A stretch of DNA of 38,679 nt from contig WHST01000059.1 in the NCBI GenBank assembly GCA_009379955.1, positions 1-38,679 on the forward strand, written 5' to 3'. The notes below the pieces were generated by a model, which ran no database searches, was not told the origin of the DNA, and saw only the letters and a program-made list of their open reading frames with translations. Source of the stretch: Streptosporangiales bacterium. GTDB lineage: Bacteria > Actinomycetota > Actinomycetes > Streptosporangiales > WHST01. The translations under genes were made by a program, and so were the position numbers. This document shows positions 12,427-22,444 of this stretch, in pieces (positions within the stretch are counted from its first letter, which is position 1; each line of letters begins with the position of its first letter).

Positions 12427-13524
12427 TCAGGTCGTGAGCACGGTGGCGTCGAGGAAGTCGGTGTCGACGGTCATGCCGAGACCGGGGGCGTCGGGCAGCA
12501 CGATCTCGTCGTCCTTCGGCCGCGGCGCGTCGGGGAAGATCTGCTCGCCGACCTGTTGCATGCCCAGGTGGAACTCCACCCGCCAACCGCCGCGCAGCCC
12601 CGCGATCAGGTGCATGTTGAAGTGCGGCCAGCCACCGCCGTTCGCGATCGGCAGGCTGAAGGCCTGCGCGAGGTGACCCACCCTGCGCGCCTCGGTGTAG
12701 CCGCCGCAGTAGCAGACGTTGGGCTGGATGATGTCGACCGCCTGCGCGTCGACGAACTCGCGGAGCCGTAGCAGGTGTCCGTCCATCTGGCCCGCGGAGA
12801 GTGGGATGTTCGTCCGGCGGCGGAGGTCCGCCATGGCCCGGACGTCGTTGCCGTGCAGCGGTTCCTCGAACCAGACGATCCCGCAGTCCTCGACGGCGCG
12901 GCAGAGCAGCAGTGCCTCGGTGGGACTGAACAGGTAGTTGGCGTCGATGGCGAGCTCCACGTCGTCGCCGACCGCGGCGCGGACGGCCCTGATGCGGTTC
13001 GCGTCCTCCCGCCAACCGTCCGGATGGACGGCGACGACCATCTTCAGCCGTCCCACGCCCGAACGGACCTGCAGCCGTGCCGCCTCGACGAGCTGGTCCC
13101 TGTCGTACTGGGGGAAGCCGAACGTCACGTACGCCGCGGCGCGGTCGCGGTGCCCGCCGAGGAGCTGCGCTATCGTCCGGCCGGCGCCCTTGCCCGCGGC
13201 GTCCCACATCGCGATGTCGAGCGCCGACATGGCACTGGAGATGACCCCGGTCTGGTTGCGCTGGTTGAGCGCCTTCGCGACCCGTGCGTGCACGGCCTCG
13301 GTGTCCCTGATGTCGACGCCCCGCAGCAGCGGGGTGATGTGCTCCGTGAGCGCGGCGACGACCGCGTGGGGAAGGAACTGCCCGGTGAGACCGAACCCGG
13401 TGAGCCCGCCGTCCGTCTCGATCCGGCAGGTCACGAACGTGCGTTGCCCGATCGGCTCGTCGAGCAACGGCACCGTGAAGGGCGCCCGGTGGGCACGGGC
13501 TCGGACGTCGGTCAGTTCGTACAT
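12427..13524 (-). CDS. Enolase-superfamily enzyme (mandelate racemase/dehydratase-like)
   Basis: This 365-residue protein has an enolase-superfamily capping domain (about 1-125) and a TIM barrel. Proton abstraction next to a carboxylate, usually leading to dehydration or racemisation of an acid sugar or hydroxy-acid, is expected. Aligned by spacing with mandelate racemase, the metal-ligand positions hold Asp194 (AIDANY) and Glu220 (FEEP), but Gln246 (SAGQMDGH) replaces the usual Glu/Asp. The general-base Lys is probably Lys161 (GRLKMVVAV), without the second Lys of a KxK pair. The Asp of the His-Asp dyad is Asn269 (QPNVCYCGG), with a candidate His301 nearby. It is the last gene of the operon, overlaps the MmgE/PrpD gene by 13 bp and has its own GAGGAG. 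The substrate is unassigned. Confidence 0.85.
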   Translation of the reverse strand: MYELTDVRARAHRAPFTVPLLDEPIGQRTFVTCRIETDGGLTGFGLTGQFLPHAVVAALTEHITPLLRGVDIRDTEAVHARVAKALNQRNQTGVISSAMSALDIAMWDAAGKGAGRTIAQLLGGHRDRAAAYVTFGFPQYDRDQLVEAARLQVRSGVGRLKMVVAVHPDGWREDANRIRAVRAAVGDDVELAIDANYLFSPTEALLLCRAVEDCGIVWFEEPLHGNDVRAMADLRRRTNIPLSAGQMDGHLLRLREFVDAQAVDIIQPNVCYCGGYTEARRVGHLAQAFSLPIANGGGWPHFNMHLIAGLRGGWRVEFHLGMQQVGEQIFPDAPRPKDDEIVLPDAPGLGMTVDTDFLDATVLTT

Positions 13525-14891
13525 GGCGCTCCTCGGGTGTCAGCTGACGGTGCGGGTCGGTCGAGTACGTCGGTCCAGCCGTGGTCGGACATCCGTGCCA
13601 CGCCGCGCAGGGTCGTCACCAGCAGGTCGGCCTGGTCGGCGCCGAGCACGGGCGCGACCAGCTCGCGTGCCTTGCCGTCGACCTCCGCCGACGACATCGG
13701 GTCGCGTGGGCTGCCGTGGATCGCGGTGACCCGATGGGCGAGTGACCGGTCGCCGGCCCGGACGACGACATGTGCCTGGCGCAGCGGTTGCATCCCCGCG
13801 TCGGTGCGGATCGTGATGCGCGGGTCGCCGCCACCGCCGCGCCAGGACGAGAACCTACGCATGTCGTGCACCGCGGCGAAGGTCAGGCGCCCGTCGGTCA
13901 GGATCACCCCGAGCACGTACGCGAGATCGATGTCGGGCATGTCACGCGAGTCGACGACGTGGGCGAGTGAGCCCGGGAGCACGACCTCGACACCGGTGAC
14001 GTCGGTTCCGCTGAGGTGATGTGTGCGCATCACCTCCAGCAGGGCCTGCGCGGGCGCCTGGATCGGAGAGCCGACCGGCAGCCACTTGATGTTCGTCCGC
14101 GCGACGGCGTAGTCCGTGCCGAGGCCGGCCGTGAGCACGTCGGGGTCGGCGTCCTCGCCGATGACGTCGAGGAAGCCGGACTCCCCGGTGAACGGCTCGT
14201 CGATCCCCGGCCAGCCCGCCGCGACCAGCCGGGCGAGCTGCACGCCGTCGGACGCGGGCATGCCCGCGAAGACGTACGCCTTCTGCACGTGCTCGGCGTC
14301 GCGGAGCCATGCCGTCGTGCCACTCGCGCGCTGGCAGGCGTACGAGAAGAGATGTGCCAGTCGCGCCGGGCCCAGGTCGGCGAGTGCGCCGGCCGTGGCG
14401 GCGCTGCCGAACAGTCCGCCGATCGCGTGGGTGCTGTGCCGGGTGGCACGGAGTGCGGTGAAGTCGGGCCACAACGCCCGGGTCGTCCGCGCGCAGACGT
14501 CGTAGCCGAGTGCGACCGCACGCAGGAGCGACCGGCCAGGAGCCCCGGCGGACTCCGCCACGGCGAGGGCGGCCGGCACGATGGAGCAGCCCGGGTGCGT
14601 GCGTGACGGCTCGTGCGAGTCGTCGGTCTCGTCGGCGTGTGCGGCCATGCCGTTGGCCAGCGCCGCGTGCGCGGTGTCGGTGCGCAGGCCCGTACCGAGC
14701 ACGGTCGCCTGCGGGCTCCCCCCGTGGGCTCTCGCGAGAGCCTGTCCGTGCCTGCCGGCCGGCAGCACCGAGCCGGACACGATCGCCGCCACCGTGTCGA
14801 CGAGGTGGTCCGTCGCGCGCTCGGCCACGTCGTCGGGAAGCGGGCGATCGAGCGCGGTGGCCACGTACTCCGCCAGCACCCGCGTGGTCAC
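13512..14891 (-). CDS. MmgE/PrpD family protein (operon copy)
   Basis: This 459-residue protein belongs to the MmgE/PrpD family, which includes 2-methylcitrate dehydratase, cis-aconitate decarboxylase and iminodisuccinate epimerase. These enzymes act on tri- or dicarboxylates. The N-terminal helical domain holds the active-site stretch AAHADETDDSHEPSRTHPGC (His85, Asp87, Asp90, Asp91, His93). A later segment is TNIKWLPVGSPIQAPAQALL, and the C-terminal domain contains DPMSSAEVDGKARELVAPV. It differs clearly from the divergent copy at 20495, so the two probably catalyse different steps. The GTG overlaps the tctA stop (GTGA), making it part of the transporter operon. The exact reaction is not assignable from sequence. 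Confidence 0.88.
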   Translation of the reverse strand: MTTRVLAEYVATALDRPLPDDVAERATDHLVDTVAAIVSGSVLPAGRHGQALARAHGGSPQATVLGTGLRTDTAHAALANGMAAHADETDDSHEPSRTHPGCSIVPAALAVAESAGAPGRSLLRAVALGYDVCARTTRALWPDFTALRATRHSTHAIGGLFGSAATAGALADLGPARLAHLFSYACQRASGTTAWLRDAEHVQKAYVFAGMPASDGVQLARLVAAGWPGIDEPFTGESGFLDVIGEDADPDVLTAGLGTDYAVARTNIKWLPVGSPIQAPAQALLEVMRTHHLSGTDVTGVEVVLPGSLAHVVDSRDMPDIDLAYVLGVILTDGRLTFAAVHDMRRFSSWRGGGGDPRITIRTDAGMQPLRQAHVVVRAGDRSLAHRVTAIHGSPRDPMSSAEVDGKARELVAPVLGADQADLLVTTLRGVARMSDHGWTDVLDRPAPSADTRGAPCTN

Positions 14892-16441
14892 GGGTGGCGC
14901 TCCAGCTCTGCGGTCGACGCGTTCGTCGCCTCGCCGGGGACGGCGTCGTCGGACTTCGACAATAGTCGGCGCACCGGTCCGACCGCGCTCGCGAGGAGCA
15001 GCAGCACGGTGAGGCACAGGACGCCGAGCGAGATCGGCCGCTGGACGAAGACGCCCAGGTCGCCCTGCGAGATGGTGAGTGACTGGTTGAGGCTCCGCTC
15101 GAGCATCGGGCCGAGGACGACGGCCAGGACGAACGGCGCCGCCGGGTATCCCAGCCTGCGCATCCCGTATCCGAGCAGCGTGAAGAACGCCAGCAGGAGG
15201 ACGTCGACGACGTTGTTGCGCAGGCTGAACGCGCCGATCACGGCGACGAGGAAGACGAGCGTCGACAGGTAGTGGTACGGCATGCGGAGCACGGACGCGA
15301 AGAGCGGGACGAGCGGCAGGTTCAGCACGAGCAGGACGACGTTGGCCAGGTAGAGGCTCGCGATCACGCCCCAGACGAGCGCGGGCTGCTCCTGCATCAG
15401 CAGCGGCCCCGGCTGCACGCCGTAGAGCACGAGCCCGCCCAACATGACCGCGGTGGCACCCGAGCCGGGGATGCCGAGGGTCAGGAGCGGGACGAGCGCC
15501 CCCGCGGTGGCGGCGTTGTTGGCGCCCTCGGGAGCGACTACGCCGGCCATGGCGCCCTTGCCGAACGTCTCTGGCCGCTTGGAGAGCCGGCGTTCGACCC
15601 CGTAGCTGAACAGCGACGCGATGGTCGCGCCCGCGCCGGGGAGCACGCCGACGAAGAACCCGACCAGCCCGCCCCTCAGCATGCTCGGCCAGGTCTCCCG
15701 CAGGTCTGCGCGCTTCGGGTACACCGAACGCCACTTCGGCCGGCTCGCCTGCAGCGTGCCCATCCCCGTGCGGAGGTTGACGAGGATCTCGGCGAGCGCG
15801 AAGACACCCATCGCGACGATCACGAAGTCGACTCCGTCGATGAGATCCACGACGCCGAAGGTGAACCTGTTCTGCCCCGAGACCGGGTCGGCGCCGACCG
15901 TCGCGACGAGCAGGCCCGCGGCGAGGGAGACGAGGACCTTCGCCTTGGATCTGCCGCCCATGAACGCGAGCAGCGCGAAGCCCAGCAGCAGGATGGCGAA
16001 GTACTCCGGCGGGCCGAGCCGCAGCGCGAAGCTCGACAGCAGGGGCGCGCCGAACATCAGGAGCACGACGGCCAGGGTGCCCGCGGCGAACGAGCTGATG
16101 GCCGCCATCCCCAGGGCGGCGCCCGCCCGGCCCTGGCGGGCGAGCTGGTACCCGTCGAGTGCGGTGACGACAGAGGCGGACTCCCCGGGTGCGTTGACGA
16201 GGATCGTGGTGATCGAGCCGCCGTACATCGCGCCGGTGTAGATGCCCACGAACATGATGAGCGCGGAGACGGGTTCCAGGCCGATGGTGAGCGGCAGCAG
16301 GATCGCGATCGTCGCGGACGGGCCGAGACCGGGCAGCGCGCCGATGATCGTGCCGACGAGCGCGCCGATCAGAGCGAAGAGGATGTTCTGCGGCTCGAAG
16401 GCGACCGCGAACCCGTGCAGGATGTCGGAGAACGGGATCAT
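14888..16441 (-). CDS. tctA: Tripartite tricarboxylate transporter, large membrane subunit TctA
   Basis: This 517-residue subunit forms the transport channel of a TTT-family importer, which takes up di- and tricarboxylates using an ion gradient and a periplasmic binding protein. The family signatures are [20 protein letters not shown] near the start and [20 protein letters not shown] in the second half, each part of an inverted repeat of membrane helices. About 11-12 helices are visible. The ATG overlaps the tctB stop (ATGA) and its own stop overlaps the MmgE/PrpD gene. Known substrates of TTT systems include citrate, tartrate, tricarballylate and sulfolactate; this one is unknown. Confidence 0.96.
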
Positions 16442-16941
16442 GAGCGCAGGATCCCGATCGGCAGCGGCACCTCGAGGAGCCGGGCGAAGACCACCGACAG
16501 CGTGATCGCGGCGAGCACCGAGAAGATCGCGGACCGGATGACGCCCACGCGTTCGACCCCGACGAGCACGGCGAACGAGAAGAGCTTGGCCGTCACCACG
16601 AAGCCGACGGCTTCGAGGACCAGCGCGACCACCACGAGCAGGAGCAGCGCGAGTGCCGGCTTGGCACGAGCGTGCCATCCGGCGGGCTCGGGGACGGGTG
16701 CGTCACCGGTCACCCGGCCCGCCGGTCTCACCAGCACTGCCCGCAACAGCACCACCAGGCCGAAGACGCCGAGGGTGAGCGATGCCCACAGCGGGAGGAA
16801 CCCGGGGCCGGGGCGTCCGTACTCCACCCGGTACGCGAATTGAAGCGACAGCAGGAGGAACGCGCCGCTCGCCGCGACGATCACCAGGCCGGCGGCGACC
16901 TCGACCCCCCGCGAGGGTGAGTCAGGCACCGAGTCGGGCAT
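16438..16941 (-). CDS. tctB: Tripartite tricarboxylate transporter, small membrane subunit TctB
   Basis: This 167-residue hydrophobic protein has four predicted membrane helices (about 14-36, 50-72, 94-122 and 136-160) and the PGPGFLPLWASLTLG segment typical of TctB. It pairs with TctA in the membrane. It starts four bases after the tctC stop and overlaps tctA by four bases, so the three transporter genes are translationally coupled. Sequence conservation in this family is low; the call rests on size, topology and position. Confidence 0.9.
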   Translation of the reverse strand: MPDSVPDSPSRGVEVAAGLVIVAASGAFLLLSLQFAYRVEYGRPGPGFLPLWASLTLGVFGLVVLLRAVLVRPAGRVTGDAPVPEPAGWHARAKPALALLLLVVVALVLEAVGFVVTAKLFSFAVLVGVERVGVIRSAIFSVLAAITLSVVFARLLEVPLPIGILRS

Positions 16942-16945
16942 GACG

Positions 16946-17953
16946 TCACCTCCGCTTCAGGTCCATGTCCTCGATGAGCTCGGAGAGCCGGGGTGCCACC
17001 TCGTCGTCGAGGTAGGCGTCCAGCTGCGTGTGGTCCTGGTACGCCGCGAGCGCGCCGCTCTCCTTCACGTACTGCTTCCACTCGGGAGTGCCGGCGACCT
17101 TGCGCATGGCGGACTCGAGGAACGTCACCGCCTCCTCGCACATCTCCGGTGCGCCGAGCAGGATCCGCGGTGACTCCCCGGTCACGTCGATCCCGGCCTC
17201 CTTCGCCGTCGGGACGGTCGGCAGCGTGGACAGCCGTCGTTCGGTGGAGAACGCCACCAGACCGCGCGCCTTACCCGCCCTGATCTGCTCGAGTGCCTCG
17301 GACGGCTGGCCGGATGCCATGTCGACGTGCCCGCCGAGCATGTTCACCATCGCCGCGCCGCCGCTGTCGTGGTTGACGTAGCTGAACTTCGCCCCGGCGT
17401 CGCGCGCCACCTGGTAGAAGAGCAGGTGGTCGGAGGAGCCGATGGTGCCGAAGCCGACGGTGATCTTGCCCGGCCGTCGCTCGGCGTCGGTGAGCAGGTC
17501 GCCGACGTTCTTCCACGGCGCGTCATCGCGGACCAGCCACACGTTCGGGTCCAGGGTCATCCGTGCGATCGGCGTGACCTCGTCGAGGTTGACGCCGATC
17601 CCGCCGCGCATGATGTTGACGAGCACGGAGATCGGGGTCGAGATCGTGGTGTGGTCGTCGCCGCTCGCGAGCCGGCGGATCGCGCTCGCGCCGTCGCCGC
17701 CCTCGGCGTTCTCGACGACGAACGGCTGCGGTGAGATCTCGTGCTTCTTCACGATCTGCGCGATCTCACGGGCGATCAGGTCGGACCCGCCGCCGGGTCC
17801 GGTGTGCACGAGGATCGTGACCGGCTTGGTCGGATAGTCGGCACAGTCGGAGGATCCGCCGGACGACGAGTCCTGACCGGTGATCGCGCTGCAGGCGGAC
17901 AGGAGGAGGGAGAGGGCAACCACTGCGGGGAGCCAAGCGCTTCGTCGGGCCAT
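16946..17953 (-). CDS. tctC: Tripartite tricarboxylate transporter, substrate-binding lipoprotein TctC
   Basis: This 335-residue solute-binding protein captures the carboxylate outside the membrane and delivers it to TctAB. It has a lipoprotein signal with a lipobox (LLLSACSA), so it should be anchored by Cys21. The mature domain has the TctC/Bug-family hallmarks YPTKPVTILVHTGPGGGSD, IGSSDHLLFYQVAR, FSYVNHDSGGAAMVNMLGGH and LPTVPTAKEAGIDV. Bug-family proteins bind carboxylates through backbone contacts in two conserved loops, so the ligand cannot be read off. GAAGGTG lies seven bases before the ATG. The gene follows the second ComA-family gene by 26 bases. Confidence 0.95.
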   Translation of the reverse strand: MARRSAWLPAVVALSLLLSACSAITGQDSSSGGSSDCADYPTKPVTILVHTGPGGGSDLIAREIAQIVKKHEISPQPFVVENAEGGDGASAIRRLASGDDHTTISTPISVLVNIMRGGIGVNLDEVTPIARMTLDPNVWLVRDDAPWKNVGDLLTDAERRPGKITVGFGTIGSSDHLLFYQVARDAGAKFSYVNHDSGGAAMVNMLGGHVDMASGQPSEALEQIRAGKARGLVAFSTERRLSTLPTVPTAKEAGIDVTGESPRILLGAPEMCEEAVTFLESAMRKVAGTPEWKQYVKESGALAAYQDHTQLDAYLDDEVAPRLSELIEDMDLKRR

Positions 17954-17979: not shown

Positions 17980-18798
17980 TTACGCGTCCTCGAGCGCGGC
18001 GGCCTTCGCCGCGCCGTCGTTCAGGAACCAGTAGCCGACGTCGCGAGTCATGCCGACACGCATGCTCTCCACGACGAGGGCGTCGTCGGGTAGCAGGTTC
18101 TCGAAGCTCACCTCGGGGCCGAAGCGGCCGAGCAGGTCGACCGTCAGGTGCGGCCAGCCGGCGGGGCGCACCTCGAAGACGAGCGAGGCGAGGCCGACCC
18201 GGTCGACGAGCCGGTCGAGCGCGGACGGCTCGTCCTCGCACCACACGAGGATGTCGGTGTTCTCCAGCGTGACGGACGAGGCGCCCGAGTCGAGGTCGGC
18301 ACGCACCCGCTCCACCGTCTCGTCGAGGTCCATCGGACCGGACGAGATCTTCTCGCCGAGCTCGGTGAACACCGCGAGGCCGTGGTCGCGTGCGCGACCG
18401 ATCAGCTCGTGCTTGCGGGACCGGCTGAGCCGTTCGATCGAGTCCTCGCTGATCTCGACGCCGTCGAAGCCGAGCTCGGCGAGCCGTTCGAGGTACGCCT
18501 CCTCCTTGCGCTGCAGGACGGCTATCTGGAACGGGATGCCGCCGGGACGTACGGGAAGCCCGGTCTCGTGGTAGAGCGCGATCCTCGCCGTGAGCCGGCC
18601 GAGGTCCAGGTCGCGGATCAGCCCGACATGGTCGGTGAGCTTGATCCAGTCGACGACGTCGGCCGCCGTCTCGCAGAGCCCGGCCGCGGCCGTGGTGGCG
18701 AGCCGGCGGTCCTTGACGACGGTGAGCCCGTGGCTACGCGGCTTCGCGCCACGTGCAGGCAGCCGGAGGAACGGCATGCCGCAGGAGTCCGGCGCCAT
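17980..18798 (-). CDS. Phosphosulfolactate synthase (ComA)-family protein, paralogue 2
   Basis: This 272-residue TIM-barrel protein belongs to the family of ComA, which adds sulfite to phosphoenolpyruvate in coenzyme M synthesis. Shared family segments are VVDWIKLTDHVGL, GLPVRPGGIPFQIAV, LGFDGVEISEDSIE, FTELGEKIS (Lys150, at the position of the ComA active-site lysine) and GASSVTLENTD. The loop after IKL lacks the archaeal GWGTS-like sequence, so phosphate or sulfonate handling may differ. The gene starts three bases after paralogue 1 and is the more divergent of the two. Synthesis of coenzyme M is unlikely here; a catabolic or lyase role with the neighbouring carboxylate transporter is inferred. 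No reaction is assigned. Confidence 0.8.
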   Translation of the reverse strand: MAPDSCGMPFLRLPARGAKPRSHGLTVVKDRRLATTAAAGLCETAADVVDWIKLTDHVGLIRDLDLGRLTARIALYHETGLPVRPGGIPFQIAVLQRKEEAYLERLAELGFDGVEISEDSIERLSRSRKHELIGRARDHGLAVFTELGEKISSGPMDLDETVERVRADLDSGASSVTLENTDILVWCEDEPSALDRLVDRVGLASLVFEVRPAGWPHLTVDLLGRFGPEVSFENLLPDDALVVESMRVGMTRDVGYWFLNDGAAKAAALEDA

Positions 18799-18801
18799 GG
18801 C

Positions 18802-19605
18802 TCATCCTCGATCCGTCGCCGGCTCGAGCTGCTGGAAGAGCGTGTAGCCCTCGTCGCGACCGATGCCGTACCTGGCCGGCTCGATCTTGAGCCCGACCTG
18901 CTCCGGCAGGATGTTGGGCCCGAGGTTCACGTCGGGTCCGAAGGTCTCGAGCAGCCACATCTGGTGCGCGGTCGTCTCCGCCTCGAAGATGAGCGGGTCG
19001 AGTCCGGTCTTCTCGACGAGCCGAACGAGCCGACCGGCCTCCTTGCCGTCGCACCGCGCACCCAGGGTCACGTCGAGCTGGCTGCGCTCGAGGATGACGC
19101 GCGAGGCGCCGGCGTCGAGCATCGCGTTGATCTCGTCGGCCGCGCCGTCGACGTCGAACGCCGCCGTCGGGTACTTCTTCCCGTACTCGAAGAGCACCTC
19201 GAGTCCGGCGGCGATGGCGCCTTCGACCGCTTGGCGCTTGTCGGCGAGCGCGATGTCGATGATGTTGTCGGAGATCTCGATCGCCTGGAACCCGAGGTCG
19301 CGCAGCCCGTCGAGGGTCTGCGGGAGCATGCCCCGGTGGTACGCGACCTCGAAGACGATGCCGCCGGGGAACGGGACGATGTCGTGCCGCCGGTAGATGG
19401 CGTTCTTCTCGCGGGTGATGTCGGCGGCCGTGTACCAGACGGCCCACTGACGGAGCTTGACGTAGTCGAGGTAGTCGCCGATGGCGCGCGCGACGTCGGT
19501 CGCCTCGCCGACGCCGAACCCCCAGTCCCTGACGATGGTGATGCCCTTGTCGCGCGGCTTGCGGCCGCGTCGGGGGAGATCGAGGAATTCCAGTCCGTAT
19601 TTCAT
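18802..19605 (-). CDS. Phosphosulfolactate synthase (ComA)-family protein, paralogue 1
   Basis: This 267-residue ComA-family TIM barrel shows LDYVKLRQWAVW, REKNAIYRRHDIVPFPGGIV, LGFQAIEISDNIIDIAL, LFEYGKKYP (Lys143-Lys144, matching the ComA GKK) and GASRVILERSQLDV. It ends VNLGPNILPEQVGLKIEPAR, like the C-terminal segment of ComA. The residues after VKL (RQWAVW) differ both from archaeal ComA and from paralogue 2. Tandem arrangement suggests a hetero-oligomer or two sequential steps. It is the first gene after gntR (29 bases) with only a weak ribosome-binding site. Known family members make phosphosulfolactate from sulfite and phosphoenolpyruvate; the reverse direction or a related conjugate addition/elimination is possible here. 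Confidence 0.82.
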   Translation of the reverse strand: MKYGLEFLDLPRRGRKPRDKGITIVRDWGFGVGEATDVARAIGDYLDYVKLRQWAVWYTAADITREKNAIYRRHDIVPFPGGIVFEVAYHRGMLPQTLDGLRDLGFQAIEISDNIIDIALADKRQAVEGAIAAGLEVLFEYGKKYPTAAFDVDGAADEINAMLDAGASRVILERSQLDVTLGARCDGKEAGRLVRLVEKTGLDPLIFEAETTAHQMWLLETFGPDVNLGPNILPEQVGLKIEPARYGIGRDEGYTLFQQLEPATDRG

Positions 19606-19634: not shown

Positions 19635-20411
19635 TCAGGGAGAGGACACGAGGTCGATCCGCATCTGCATCCGGTAGCGGTCGTGGCGGTGGAAGATCCG
19701 GGAGAAGATCACGGGCGTGCCGGTCGTCACGTACCAGACCCGCTCGATGATGACGAGCGGTGCGCCGACGGCGATGCCGAGTGGCTCGGCGTGGTGCTGG
19801 TCGGCAGTGCCGACCTCGAGGGTGGCGTCGACGTGGGAGAACTCCAGCCCGTAGCGCGTGCCGAGGAGGTCACGCAGGGCGCTCGACGCGAAGTCGGCGG
19901 GCCCGAGGCCGGGGAAGAGCCGCTGCGACAGGTAGGTGACCTGCGTGGCGACGACCTCCCCGTCGGAGAGCCGCAGTCGGCGGATCTTGTAGACCAGCTC
20001 CTTGTCGGTGACGGCGAGCCGGTCCTTCAGCCGCACGTCGGGGGGGATGGTGTCGACACCCATCACCCGGATGGTCGGTGAACCGCCGCGCCGGGAGATG
20101 AGCTCACGCGTGGACACGAGCGACTGCAGGCCGGCGATCTCCTCGCCGAGCTTCGCCGGGGCGACGTAGGTGCCGCTGCCCTGGCGGCTGAAAAGGACGC
20201 CTTCGGCGACGAGGCTGTTGACGGCCTGGCGCACCGTCGTGCGGCTGACGCCGAACTGGGTGCAGAGCTCGCCCTCGGTGGGGAGACGGGAACCGGGTTG
20301 CTGCGAGCTCGCGAGGTCGCGAAGGGCTCGCTTGACCTGCCGCCAGAGTGACGTCGCGGACTGGTCGATCTCGCTGCGCGAGACGGCCAGCGGACTCCGG
20401 TCGGGCGGCAT
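19635..20411 (-). CDS. GntR family regulator, HutC/UTRA subfamily
   Basis: This 258-residue regulator has an N-terminal GntR winged helix (SRLPTEGELCTQFGVSRTTV, then VAEGVLFSRQGSGTYVAP) and a C-terminal UTRA ligand-binding domain (about 90-250; RLSDGEVVATQVTYLSQRLF and PLVIIERVWYVTTGTPVIFS). UTRA proteins sense small acidic or sugar-like metabolites. GGAGGGAG lies six bases before the ATG. It is the first gene of the carboxylate operon and divergent from an MmgE/PrpD gene, with a perfect palindrome overlapping both promoters. It is therefore the probable local repressor, relieved by the transported substrate or an intermediate. Confidence 0.93.
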   Translation of the reverse strand: MPPDRSPLAVSRSEIDQSATSLWRQVKRALRDLASSQQPGSRLPTEGELCTQFGVSRTTVRQAVNSLVAEGVLFSRQGSGTYVAPAKLGEEIAGLQSLVSTRELISRRGGSPTIRVMGVDTIPPDVRLKDRLAVTDKELVYKIRRLRLSDGEVVATQVTYLSQRLFPGLGPADFASSALRDLLGTRYGLEFSHVDATLEVGTADQHHAEPLGIAVGAPLVIIERVWYVTTGTPVIFSRIFHRHDRYRMQMRIDLVSSP

Positions 20412-20434
20412 CGTCCACTCCCTCCGGCGAGGAG

Positions 20435-20473
20435 ATTCATCATGTTGTCATGATGAATTTTGCGTGTCAACAT
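20435..20473. promoter_or_regulatory. Palindromic operator and overlapping divergent promoters of gntR and mmgE
   Basis: ATTCATCATG (20435-20444), TTGT, CATGATGAAT (20449-20458) is a perfect inverted repeat with 10-bp arms. A minus-strand promoter can be drawn as TTGACA (20465-20470), 17 bp, CAACAT (20442-20447). A plus-strand promoter can be drawn as TTGTCA (20445-20450), 17 bp, CAACAT (20468-20473). One bound GntR dimer could thus control both directions. The palindrome is certain; the promoter hexamers are predictions. Confidence 0.7.
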
Positions 20474-20494
20474 GGCCCCGTGGTGGAGCCGCTG

Positions 20495-21838
20495 ATGGAC
20501 ACCGTGAGTCGCTGGGTCGCCGCGACCACGCACCACGACCTCCCGGTGGAGGTGCGCGCGAAGGCGGCGCAGGGCGTCCTCGACGGGCTCGGGGTGGCGC
20601 TGGCCGGTTCACGGCACCCGGCGAGCCGTCCCGTCACGAGACTGGTGACCGATCTCGGCGGGCGTCCGGAGGCGAGCGTTCTCGGCTCCGGCCTGCGCAC
20701 GTCGAGTGTCGACGCCGCGCTGGCGAACGCCTACTACGCCCACGTGCTGGACTTCGACGACACGCACGTCGACGCGATCGTCCACGTCAACGCGCCCGTC
20801 CTGGCGGCGGCCCTGGCGACCGCGGAGGCGACCGGGGCCGCCGGTGCCGCCCTGCTCGCGGCGCAGGCCGTCGGCATGGAGGTCACCTCGCGGATGGCGG
20901 TGGCCATGGAGCAGCACCACGACCACGGCTGGCACCTCACCGGTGTCGCCGGCGCGTTCGGCGCCGCCGCTGCGGCCGCGAGCGTCCTGCGGCTCGACCC
21001 GGAGCGCACGGCCCATGCGCTCGGTGCCGCGAGCACGCTGGCGTCGGGGCTGCGCATCCATCGGGGCACGGGGACGAAGTCGCTGAACCCGGCCAACGCC
21101 GCGGCGAACGGCGTGCTCGCCGCGCTGGCGGCACGTGCCGGCATGACGAGCAACCCCGCCGTTCTCGACGACACTCGCCGCGGCGTCCTCGTCAGCCATG
21201 GCGTGTCGACCGATCCGGCGACGCTGGCCGCCGGGCTCGGCGAGTCGTACCGCATGCTCGGCGTGGAGCCCAAGCCCTACCCGTGCGGGGTCGTGGTGCA
21301 CGCGCCGGTCGACGCCGCACTCGACCTGCTCGCGGAGCACCGCGACCGGCTCGCCGCGGACCCGGTCGAGAGCGTGGCGCTCACGGTCCACCCGCTGGTG
21401 CTGGAGCTCACCGGCAACCCCAGGCCGCGCACCGGTCTGGAGACCAAGTTCAGCGTCCAGCACGCGGTCGCCGTCGCCCTGCTCGAGGGGCGGCTCCTGC
21501 CCGAGCACTTCGGCGAGGACTGGGCCGAACGTGCGGACGTCATGCGCCTACGGGACCGCGTGACCGCGCGGGTCGACCCGGAGTCGAGCCGGCACGAGGC
21601 GACGATCCGGGTGCACACCCGCTCCGGCCACGAACTCACCTCGACGTCCGCGGCCCGCGGCACGCCGTCCCGTCCGATGACGGCCGAGGACGTCGAGGCG
21701 AAGTTCCGCCACCTGGCCACGCCGGTCCTCGGCGACCTGCGGGCAGGGCAGGTCGTCGAACGCGTCCGCCGCCTGGCGGACGCCGGCCCGGTCGACGACC
21801 TGACCGCGCTCCTCCGCCCGTACCCCCCGGGCGAATGA
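20495..21838 (+). CDS. MmgE/PrpD family protein (divergent copy)
   Basis: This 447-residue protein is of the MmgE/PrpD type, related to 2-methylcitrate dehydratase and cis-aconitate decarboxylase. The active-site stretch is HVLDFDDTHVDAIVHVNAPV (Asp86, Asp88, Asp89, His91). Later come GLRIHRGTGTKSLNPANAAA, VEPKPYPCGVVVHAPVDAAL and the lysine-containing LETKFSVQHAVAVALLEG, which is closer to the classical family pattern than the operon copy. ATG 20495 is chosen because GGAG lies six bases upstream and the protein then opens at the normal place; the frame extends further upstream into the gntR promoter. It is transcribed away from gntR under the shared operator, so it belongs to the same pathway. 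Confidence 0.88.
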   Translation: MDTVSRWVAATTHHDLPVEVRAKAAQGVLDGLGVALAGSRHPASRPVTRLVTDLGGRPEASVLGSGLRTSSVDAALANAYYAHVLDFDDTHVDAIVHVNAPVLAAALATAEATGAAGAALLAAQAVGMEVTSRMAVAMEQHHDHGWHLTGVAGAFGAAAAAASVLRLDPERTAHALGAASTLASGLRIHRGTGTKSLNPANAAANGVLAALAARAGMTSNPAVLDDTRRGVLVSHGVSTDPATLAAGLGESYRMLGVEPKPYPCGVVVHAPVDAALDLLAEHRDRLAADPVESVALTVHPLVLELTGNPRPRTGLETKFSVQHAVAVALLEGRLLPEHFGEDWAERADVMRLRDRVTARVDPESSRHEATIRVHTRSGHELTSTSAARGTPSRPMTAEDVEAKFRHLATPVLGDLRAGQVVERVRRLADAGPVDDLTALLRPYPPGE

Positions 21839-21964: not shown

Positions 21965-22444
21965 TCAGGCCGGGGCTTGGGCGCGGACCACGATGCCGTC
22001 GTCGTCGGCGGCGAGCCAGGTGCCGGGGGTGAAGGTCGCCCCGCCGAACGACACCTCGACGTCGACCTCGCCCGTGCCGTCCTTCCCGCTCTTGCGCGGG
22101 TTGCTGCCGAGCGCCTTGACGCCGAACGGCAGGTCGCGCAGCGCCGCGACGTCGCGGACGGCGGCGTTGATCACCAGGCCCGACCAGCCGTGCGTCAGGC
22201 CGAGGCCGGCGACGATGTCGCCGACGAGCGCGCAACGCAACGAGCCGCCGCCGTCGATCACGAGGACGGCGCCGTCGCCCGGCGTCGAGAGCGTGGCCTT
22301 GACCAGCGCGTTGTCCTCGGAGCAGCGCACGGTGCGCACGGGTCCGTGGAATGCGCGTCGTCCGCCGTACTGGGTCAGCTGGAGCTCGCAGCTGCCCAGC
22401 TCGTCGCCGTACTCGTCCATCAGGTCCGCAGTCGCGAAGGTCAT
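21965..22444 (-). CDS. rraA: RraA family protein (RNase E regulator / aldolase fold)
   Basis: This 159-residue protein matches E. coli RraA in length and sequence pattern: [57 protein letters not shown] and [15 protein letters not shown]. RraA binds and inhibits RNase E in enterobacteria; relatives are class II aldolases and oxaloacetate decarboxylases. Arg97-Asp98 of the aldolase motif are present, but the following acidic pair is not (RDVAAL), which favours an RraA-like role over HMG aldolase. It is adjacent to the carboxylate cluster, so a decarboxylase role is possible but weakly supported. It is divergent from the endonuclease IV gene. Confidence 0.85.

Follow-up and report, generated by a model that had tools for sequence, protein, structure and literature searches.

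ComA1 and ComA2, two adjacent genes of this Streptosporangiales bacterium, are predicted from their sequences and modeled folds to encode active, distinct enzymes other than phosphosulfolactate synthases, which would supply the central catalytic steps inside the cell for a catabolic operon under inducible control; we put the probability of this reading at about 0.5. That the two proteins are not phosphosulfolactate synthases, but catabolic enzymes linked to a tripartite tricarboxylate transporter (TTT), is by itself highly probable. Each represents its own old subfamily of the ComA fold, and the two are brought together in a TTT operon; it is this context, absent from the preliminary description of the window (the whole stretch of 38,679 nucleotides analyzed), that matters most for interpreting the pair.

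Gene Organization

ComA1 and ComA2 belong to an apparent operon of eight minus-strand genes in the order GntR/UTRA regulator, ComA1, ComA2, TctC, TctB, TctA, MmgE/PrpD protein, and enolase-superfamily protein (Table 1); with TctA, TctB, and TctC all present, the transporter encoded next to the ComA pair was assigned to the TTT type. Both ComA-family reading frames lie exactly where the preliminary description had placed them and score well above the curated cut-off of PF02679 (Pfam ComA; 25.2 bits). The motifs it had listed were likewise found, namely VKLRQWAVW, PGG, EIS, and GKK in ComA1 and IKLTDHVGL, PGG, EIS, and GEK in ComA2, and the archaeal loop that it gave, FGWGTS, was correct, the archaeal sequence being VKFGWGTS. 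The ComA1 stop and the ComA2 start are separated by 3 nt, a Shine-Dalgarno-like AGGA was located by eye inside the 3' end of ComA1 ahead of ComA2, and the third-position G+C is 0.93 in both genes. The two proteins are approximately 33% identical; ComA1 is closer to the third ComA of the genome (44% identity), and ComA2 is the more divergent paralogue, as had been described.

Table 1. Features of the operon and its flanks in the window.
Feature	Position	Strand	Evidence and remarks
Enolase-superfamily protein (mandelate racemase/acid-sugar dehydratase type, MR_MLE)	12427-13524	-	PF13378 + PF02746
MmgE/PrpD family protein	13512-14939 (start approximate)	-	PF03972 + PF19305
TctA, large membrane subunit	14888-16441	-	PF01970 531 bits
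TctB, small membrane subunit	16438-16941	-	PF07331 59.4 bits
TctC, TTT substrate-binding protein	16946-17953	-	PF03401 105.9 bits
ComA2	17980-18798	-	272 aa; P2-type subfamily; PF02679 135.3 bits, model, tree, residues
ComA1	18802-19605	-	267 aa; P1-type subfamily; PF02679 178.1 bits, model, tree, residues
GntR/UTRA regulator, opening the operon	19635-20411	-	PF07702 + PF00392; 29 nt ahead of ComA1
Second MmgE/PrpD gene, divergent	20348-21838	+	PF03972 196 bits, PF19305 126 bits
Perfect 10-bp inverted repeat ATTCATCATG-TTGT-CATGATGAAT	20435-20458	.	between gntR and divergent prpD
RraA / 4-hydroxy-4-methyl-2-oxoglutarate aldolase-like protein; cluster membership uncertain	21965-22444	-	PF03737 153.7 bits

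The start of TctA was placed by eye at Met80 of its ORF and overlaps the tctB stop. For the MmgE/PrpD protein of the operon, the nearest solved relative is iminodisuccinate epimerase (2HP0, 112 bits), and the next family scores 62 bits. The enolase-superfamily protein has its nearest solved relatives among enzymes of the sugar-acid dehydratase/cycloisomerase kind, all below the NCBIfam equivalog cut-offs. The second MmgE/PrpD gene, whose true start is probably downstream of the listed GTG, has IRG1/IDS-epimerase as nearest solved relatives and is likely co-regulated with the operon. Neither MmgE/PrpD protein approaches the equivalog of PrpD proper, NF042438 (35.1 / 31.8 bits versus 950). The inverted repeat, which was the sole match in the window when up to 3 mismatches were allowed (0 expected), is likely an operator of the GntR protein, a putative function.

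At locus L004 (contig C33), the third ComA gene of the genome is followed downstream by tctB-tctA-tctC, and all three ComA genes sit in 2 of the 13 TctA loci of the genome (rough chance ~2e-4). A gene resembling homogentisate dioxygenase (by eye; L004, 4519-5772) was also seen near this third ComA/TTT operon. Contamination as the source of the ComA1/ComA2 operon (the genome is 3.8% contaminated) was judged unlikely, because the third ComA sits on a different contig and is 68% identical to an actinobacterial orthologue whose TTT/SDR neighbors are the same. The absence of comB from the window, pointed out earlier, extends to the genome (97% complete): in searches made family by family, PF04029 (comB) gave no match in it with the controls detected, and sulfopyruvate decarboxylase alpha was not found anywhere in it.

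Fold and Conserved Residues

Structure prediction had been proposed as a check; modeled alone, each protein gave a TIM barrel closest to Methanocaldococcus jannaschii ComA (1QWG), with Z values of 29.7 for ComA1 (AlphaFold pLDDT 83) and 29.4 for ComA2 (pLDDT 81). Bacillus subtilis 1U83 matched both models at Z ~25, and other, non-ComA TIM barrels gave Z ~15 or less. This (beta/alpha)8 barrel and the conserved core place both proteins in the ComA superfamily at the fold level. In M. jannaschii numbering, K43, G74-G75, E103, E133, K137, E168, E205, and R240 are invariant in 8/8 proteins of the subfamily containing ComA1 (P1-type) and 6/6 of that containing ComA2 (P2-type), and G135 is also conserved across ComA, P1-type, and P2-type. 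The core comprises K50, E86, E110, E140, K144, E173, E208, and R245 in ComA1 and K53, E115, E146, K150, E179, E209, and R247 in ComA2, in which Gln (Q91) takes the place of the conserved Glu found at M. jannaschii E79, a replacement shared by two other P2-type proteins.

In contrast to ComA, both subfamilies have lost Arg170, Gly107, and Pro207 (M. jannaschii numbers). The Arg170-Glu-Ser-Gly (RESG) loop is replaced by RSQLD in ComA1 (S175/Q176/L177/D178 at its positions) and is shortened in ComA2 (T181/D182/I183/L184). P1-type proteins carry Arg or Lys after the K43 strand and, in most members, the loop ERxxLD, while P2-type proteins have an invariant Asp-His after K43 (D56-H57 in ComA2) and an invariant Glu-Asp after the EIS serine (E118-D119). 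That ComA2 might be a decayed pseudo-enzyme was ruled out by its conserved core residues and these subfamily-specific invariants.

Phylogeny of the ComA Family

Phylogenetic analysis of 84 ComA proteins, in which the midpoint root and some of the long branches (e.g., L106) are uncertain, recovered the P1-type (8) and P2-type (6) proteins each as one group with 100/100 support. Members of both come from Actinomycetota, Chloroflexota, and Pseudomonadota and are mostly encoded near TTT genes, and together with a Paracoccus/Bradyrhizobium/Burkholderiales group they constitute a 25-row set (96/86). M. jannaschii ComA, ComB-adjacent ComA, and other Arg170-type ComA constitute a distinct 36-row set (100/99) that excludes ComA1 and ComA2. 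The separation of ComA1 and ComA2 is independent of the midpoint root and the long branches. All 43 sequences assigned to the Arg170 group carry the residue, M. jannaschii and 5/5 ComB-adjacent ComA among them, a value of 100% by construction as the residue defines the group; independently of this grouping, the Arg170 set coincides with a supported clade and contains all five ComB-adjacent genes. The preliminary description called the two genes tandem paralogues, and paralogues they are, but a recent local tandem duplication was rejected since the tree puts them in separate 100/100 subfamilies. Its view that they are diverged ComA-family members unlikely to serve coenzyme M is upheld by the absence of comB, the loss of the Arg170 loop, and their position outside the ComA/ComB clade.

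The non-canonical ComA of Paracoccus/Bradyrhizobium/Burkholderiales, annotated as 'phosphosulfolactate synthase' and located beside TcuA/PrpF/PrpD, share the absence of Arg170 and the acid-catabolism neighbors and group with P1-type proteins in the tree (96/83), but they form a separate 100/100 clade, are ~30% identical, and have other loop residues. SEGITE-type relatives, in a superfamily to which plant HSA32 also belongs, share PF02679 and the absence of Arg170 and differ in the loop ESEGITE, in GVQ/GIQ in place of GKK, and in their separate clade. In Paracoccus and several Burkholderiales, non-canonical ComA adjoins the FAD-dependent tricarballylate dehydrogenase TcuA (L021, 9777-11318; L147-L150), and an Arthrobacter plasmid carries a ComA relative beside genes for thioredoxin, thioredoxin reductase, and a UGSC (seleno)protein (L023, 8950-13094). 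Another divergent actinobacterial subfamily (L057-L060) adjoins ComB-like genes; these are probably true phosphosulfolactate synthases because the Arg170 loop is kept.

Relatives in Other Genomes and Linkage to TTT Genes

The other ComA proteins in the sampled genomes of the order (297) and the phylum (396) are mostly of canonical type. Scanning of genome contigs with ComA1 as a single sequence detected no relative, whereas a two-sequence profile (ComA1 and the third ComA) found three, in a betaproteobacterial MAG (53%), Chloroflexi UBA6077 (51%), and a Rhodoglobus MAG (44%). In UBA6077 (L064/L107), the gene immediately after a ComA2-type gene (45.5% identical) encodes a TctC 47% identical to that of the window; genes for TctA, PrpD, and a protein like isocitrate/isopropylmalate dehydrogenase come next. 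In the Rhodoglobus locus, the third ComA has its 68%-identical orthologue, accompanied by TctC, TctA, TctB, SDR, PrpF, and CitE-like genes. Eleven ComA places were counted in each of the betaproteobacterium (G692, L098-L106), where they include several distinct subfamilies, and UBA6077 (G693, L064/L107-L115), whose 5.9 Mb also hold 41 full TctA genes, an unusual co-expansion. Of the eight non-canonical ComA genes of UBA6077, five are no more than 3 kb away from a TctA gene (chance ~3e-5); four of the five are ComA2-type, and three (L109, L110, L112) have no ComA1-type gene in the stretch examined. Conversely, P1-type genes occur without a P2-type gene at L004, L063, L065, and L108. At L099 of the betaproteobacterium, two ComA genes of different subfamilies flank one TctC gene, and thus unlike ComA pairs in one TTT-associated stretch recur.

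TTT genes were found within 1.5 kb for 16/65 sequences without Arg170 and 0/42 with it, a difference (Fisher 2e-4) to be taken as indicative, since the ComA sequences sampled are related and thus lack phylogenetic independence, and two genomes are over-represented. Linkage in Burkholderiales is weak evidence because TTT receptors are very abundant there, and some ComA relatives have no TTT gene alongside. Families neighboring P1/P2-type genes were TctC (9/57), TctA (7), and TctB (5), further GntR, SDR, MmgE/PrpD, MR_MLE, PEP-mutase/ICL, and IclR, and also CoA transferase, isocitrate/isopropylmalate dehydrogenase, aconitase, PrpF, and HMGL-like proteins. These neighbors, together with the MmgE/PrpD protein nearest to iminodisuccinate epimerase, point to carboxylic-acid catabolism. 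Known TTT catabolic operons with MmgE/PrpD share TctABC, PrpD, and a GntR-type regulator with the present one, which differs from them by two ComA-fold enzymes between the regulator and the transporter. A literature search found no paper pairing the name of the ComA enzyme with TTT, and none naming PF02679.

Proposed Function and Alternatives

The analysis establishes the fold, the residues, the subfamilies to which the proteins belong, the gene order, and the recurring link to the transporter. On these grounds, ComA1 and ComA2 are best read as two different lyase-type steps by which an imported polycarboxylate is catabolized; the reaction with its direction, the elimination chemistry with its leaving group, the substrate, and the regulation are what we infer from them. 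TctABC would import a non-phosphorylated (hydroxy-)polycarboxylate or a beta-substituted one, on which, or on successive intermediates of which, ComA1 and ComA2 would each act. The MmgE/PrpD and enolase-superfamily enzymes would then epimerize or (de)hydrate the remainder, and the GntR/UTRA protein may control the operon via the inverted repeat. ComA adds sulfite to PEP, forming a C-S bond. The simplest extension of this chemistry would be a lyase that uses it to break down an acid lacking phosphate: the conserved Lys/Glu set may abstract a proton next to a carboxylate, a substituent would be lost from the resulting enolate-like intermediate by beta-elimination (retro-Michael), and groups suited to another substrate may stand in for the Arg170 loop of ComA. 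This specific beta-elimination reading is held tentatively, at somewhat less than even odds.

An enolate-stabilizing site could instead perform 1,1-proton transfer or C-C cleavage without beta-elimination, making the enzymes isomerases, epimerases, or aldolases/decarboxylases. The conserved Lys/Glu core suits enolate chemistry of this kind, related chemistry is present in the neighboring MmgE/PrpD (nearest to an epimerase) and enolase-superfamily proteins, and other TIM-barrel lyases (PEP-mutase/ICL, HMGL, CitE, DHDPS) recur as neighbors; it is nevertheless unlikely, as we know of no ComA-family member acting in such a way. Desulfonating lyases, which would eliminate sulfite from an imported organosulfonate (e.g., a sulfo-di/tricarboxylate) in a true reversal of ComA chemistry, would accord with the C-S bond formed by ComA and with a Paracoccus versutus ComA relative that adjoins an SsuA-type ABC transporter and CHR transporters. 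This appears quite unlikely, however, as the Arg170 loop is lost and no sulfur-metabolism family was present among the most frequent neighbor families, of which 25 out of 50 were listed, or in the inspected loci.

The preliminary description had offered an active/structural pair or two steps as explanations. An obligate ComA1-ComA2 heteromer with a non-catalytic ComA2 might be suggested by the 3-nt spacing and by the greater divergence, shortened loop, and E79Q replacement of ComA2, but it is very unlikely, since each type occurs in other loci without the other and ComA2 keeps the Lys/Glu core and its own Asp-His and Glu-Asp. Two steps fit better because both proteins belong to their own three-phylum 100/100 subfamilies, the ComA2-type occurs alone in TTT operons, and each has its own invariant loop residues; the evidence does not require the two steps to have different leaving groups, as had been proposed with them. 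Ordinary phosphosulfolactate synthesis, for coenzyme M or sulfolactate, agrees with the Pfam ComA match and the ComA fold but is highly improbable in view of the missing genes, the different loop and clade, and scores of 149.5 / 126.3 bits against the 280 of TIGR03849, an archaeal ComA equivalog that is weak for bacterial enzymes. A low score against Pfam was not retained as a criterion in its own right, since ComB-adjacent ComA of actinobacteria likewise reach no more than 149-162 bits.

Implications for the ComA Family

Such genes are publicly annotated as 'phosphosulfolactate synthase', and P1/P2-type ComA are probably widely mis-annotated in this way, a label that wrongly implies the synthesis of coenzyme M or sulfolactate. 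It is possible, at somewhat less than even odds, that the ComA fold has diversified in bacteria into a broad class of lyases that catabolize non-phosphorylated (poly)carboxylates, consisting of several ancient subfamilies, reaching up to 11 copies per genome, and exchanged among phyla together with TTT; the tandem pair would then carry out two successive new reactions of this class, among which may be a new way of cleaving a C-S or C-N bond. If our main reading of the pair is right, the ComA fold would constitute a sizeable, so far unassigned enzyme class in carboxylic-acid degradation, and the neighboring TctC binding proteins would offer a ready route to the substrates of these ComA-fold enzymes.
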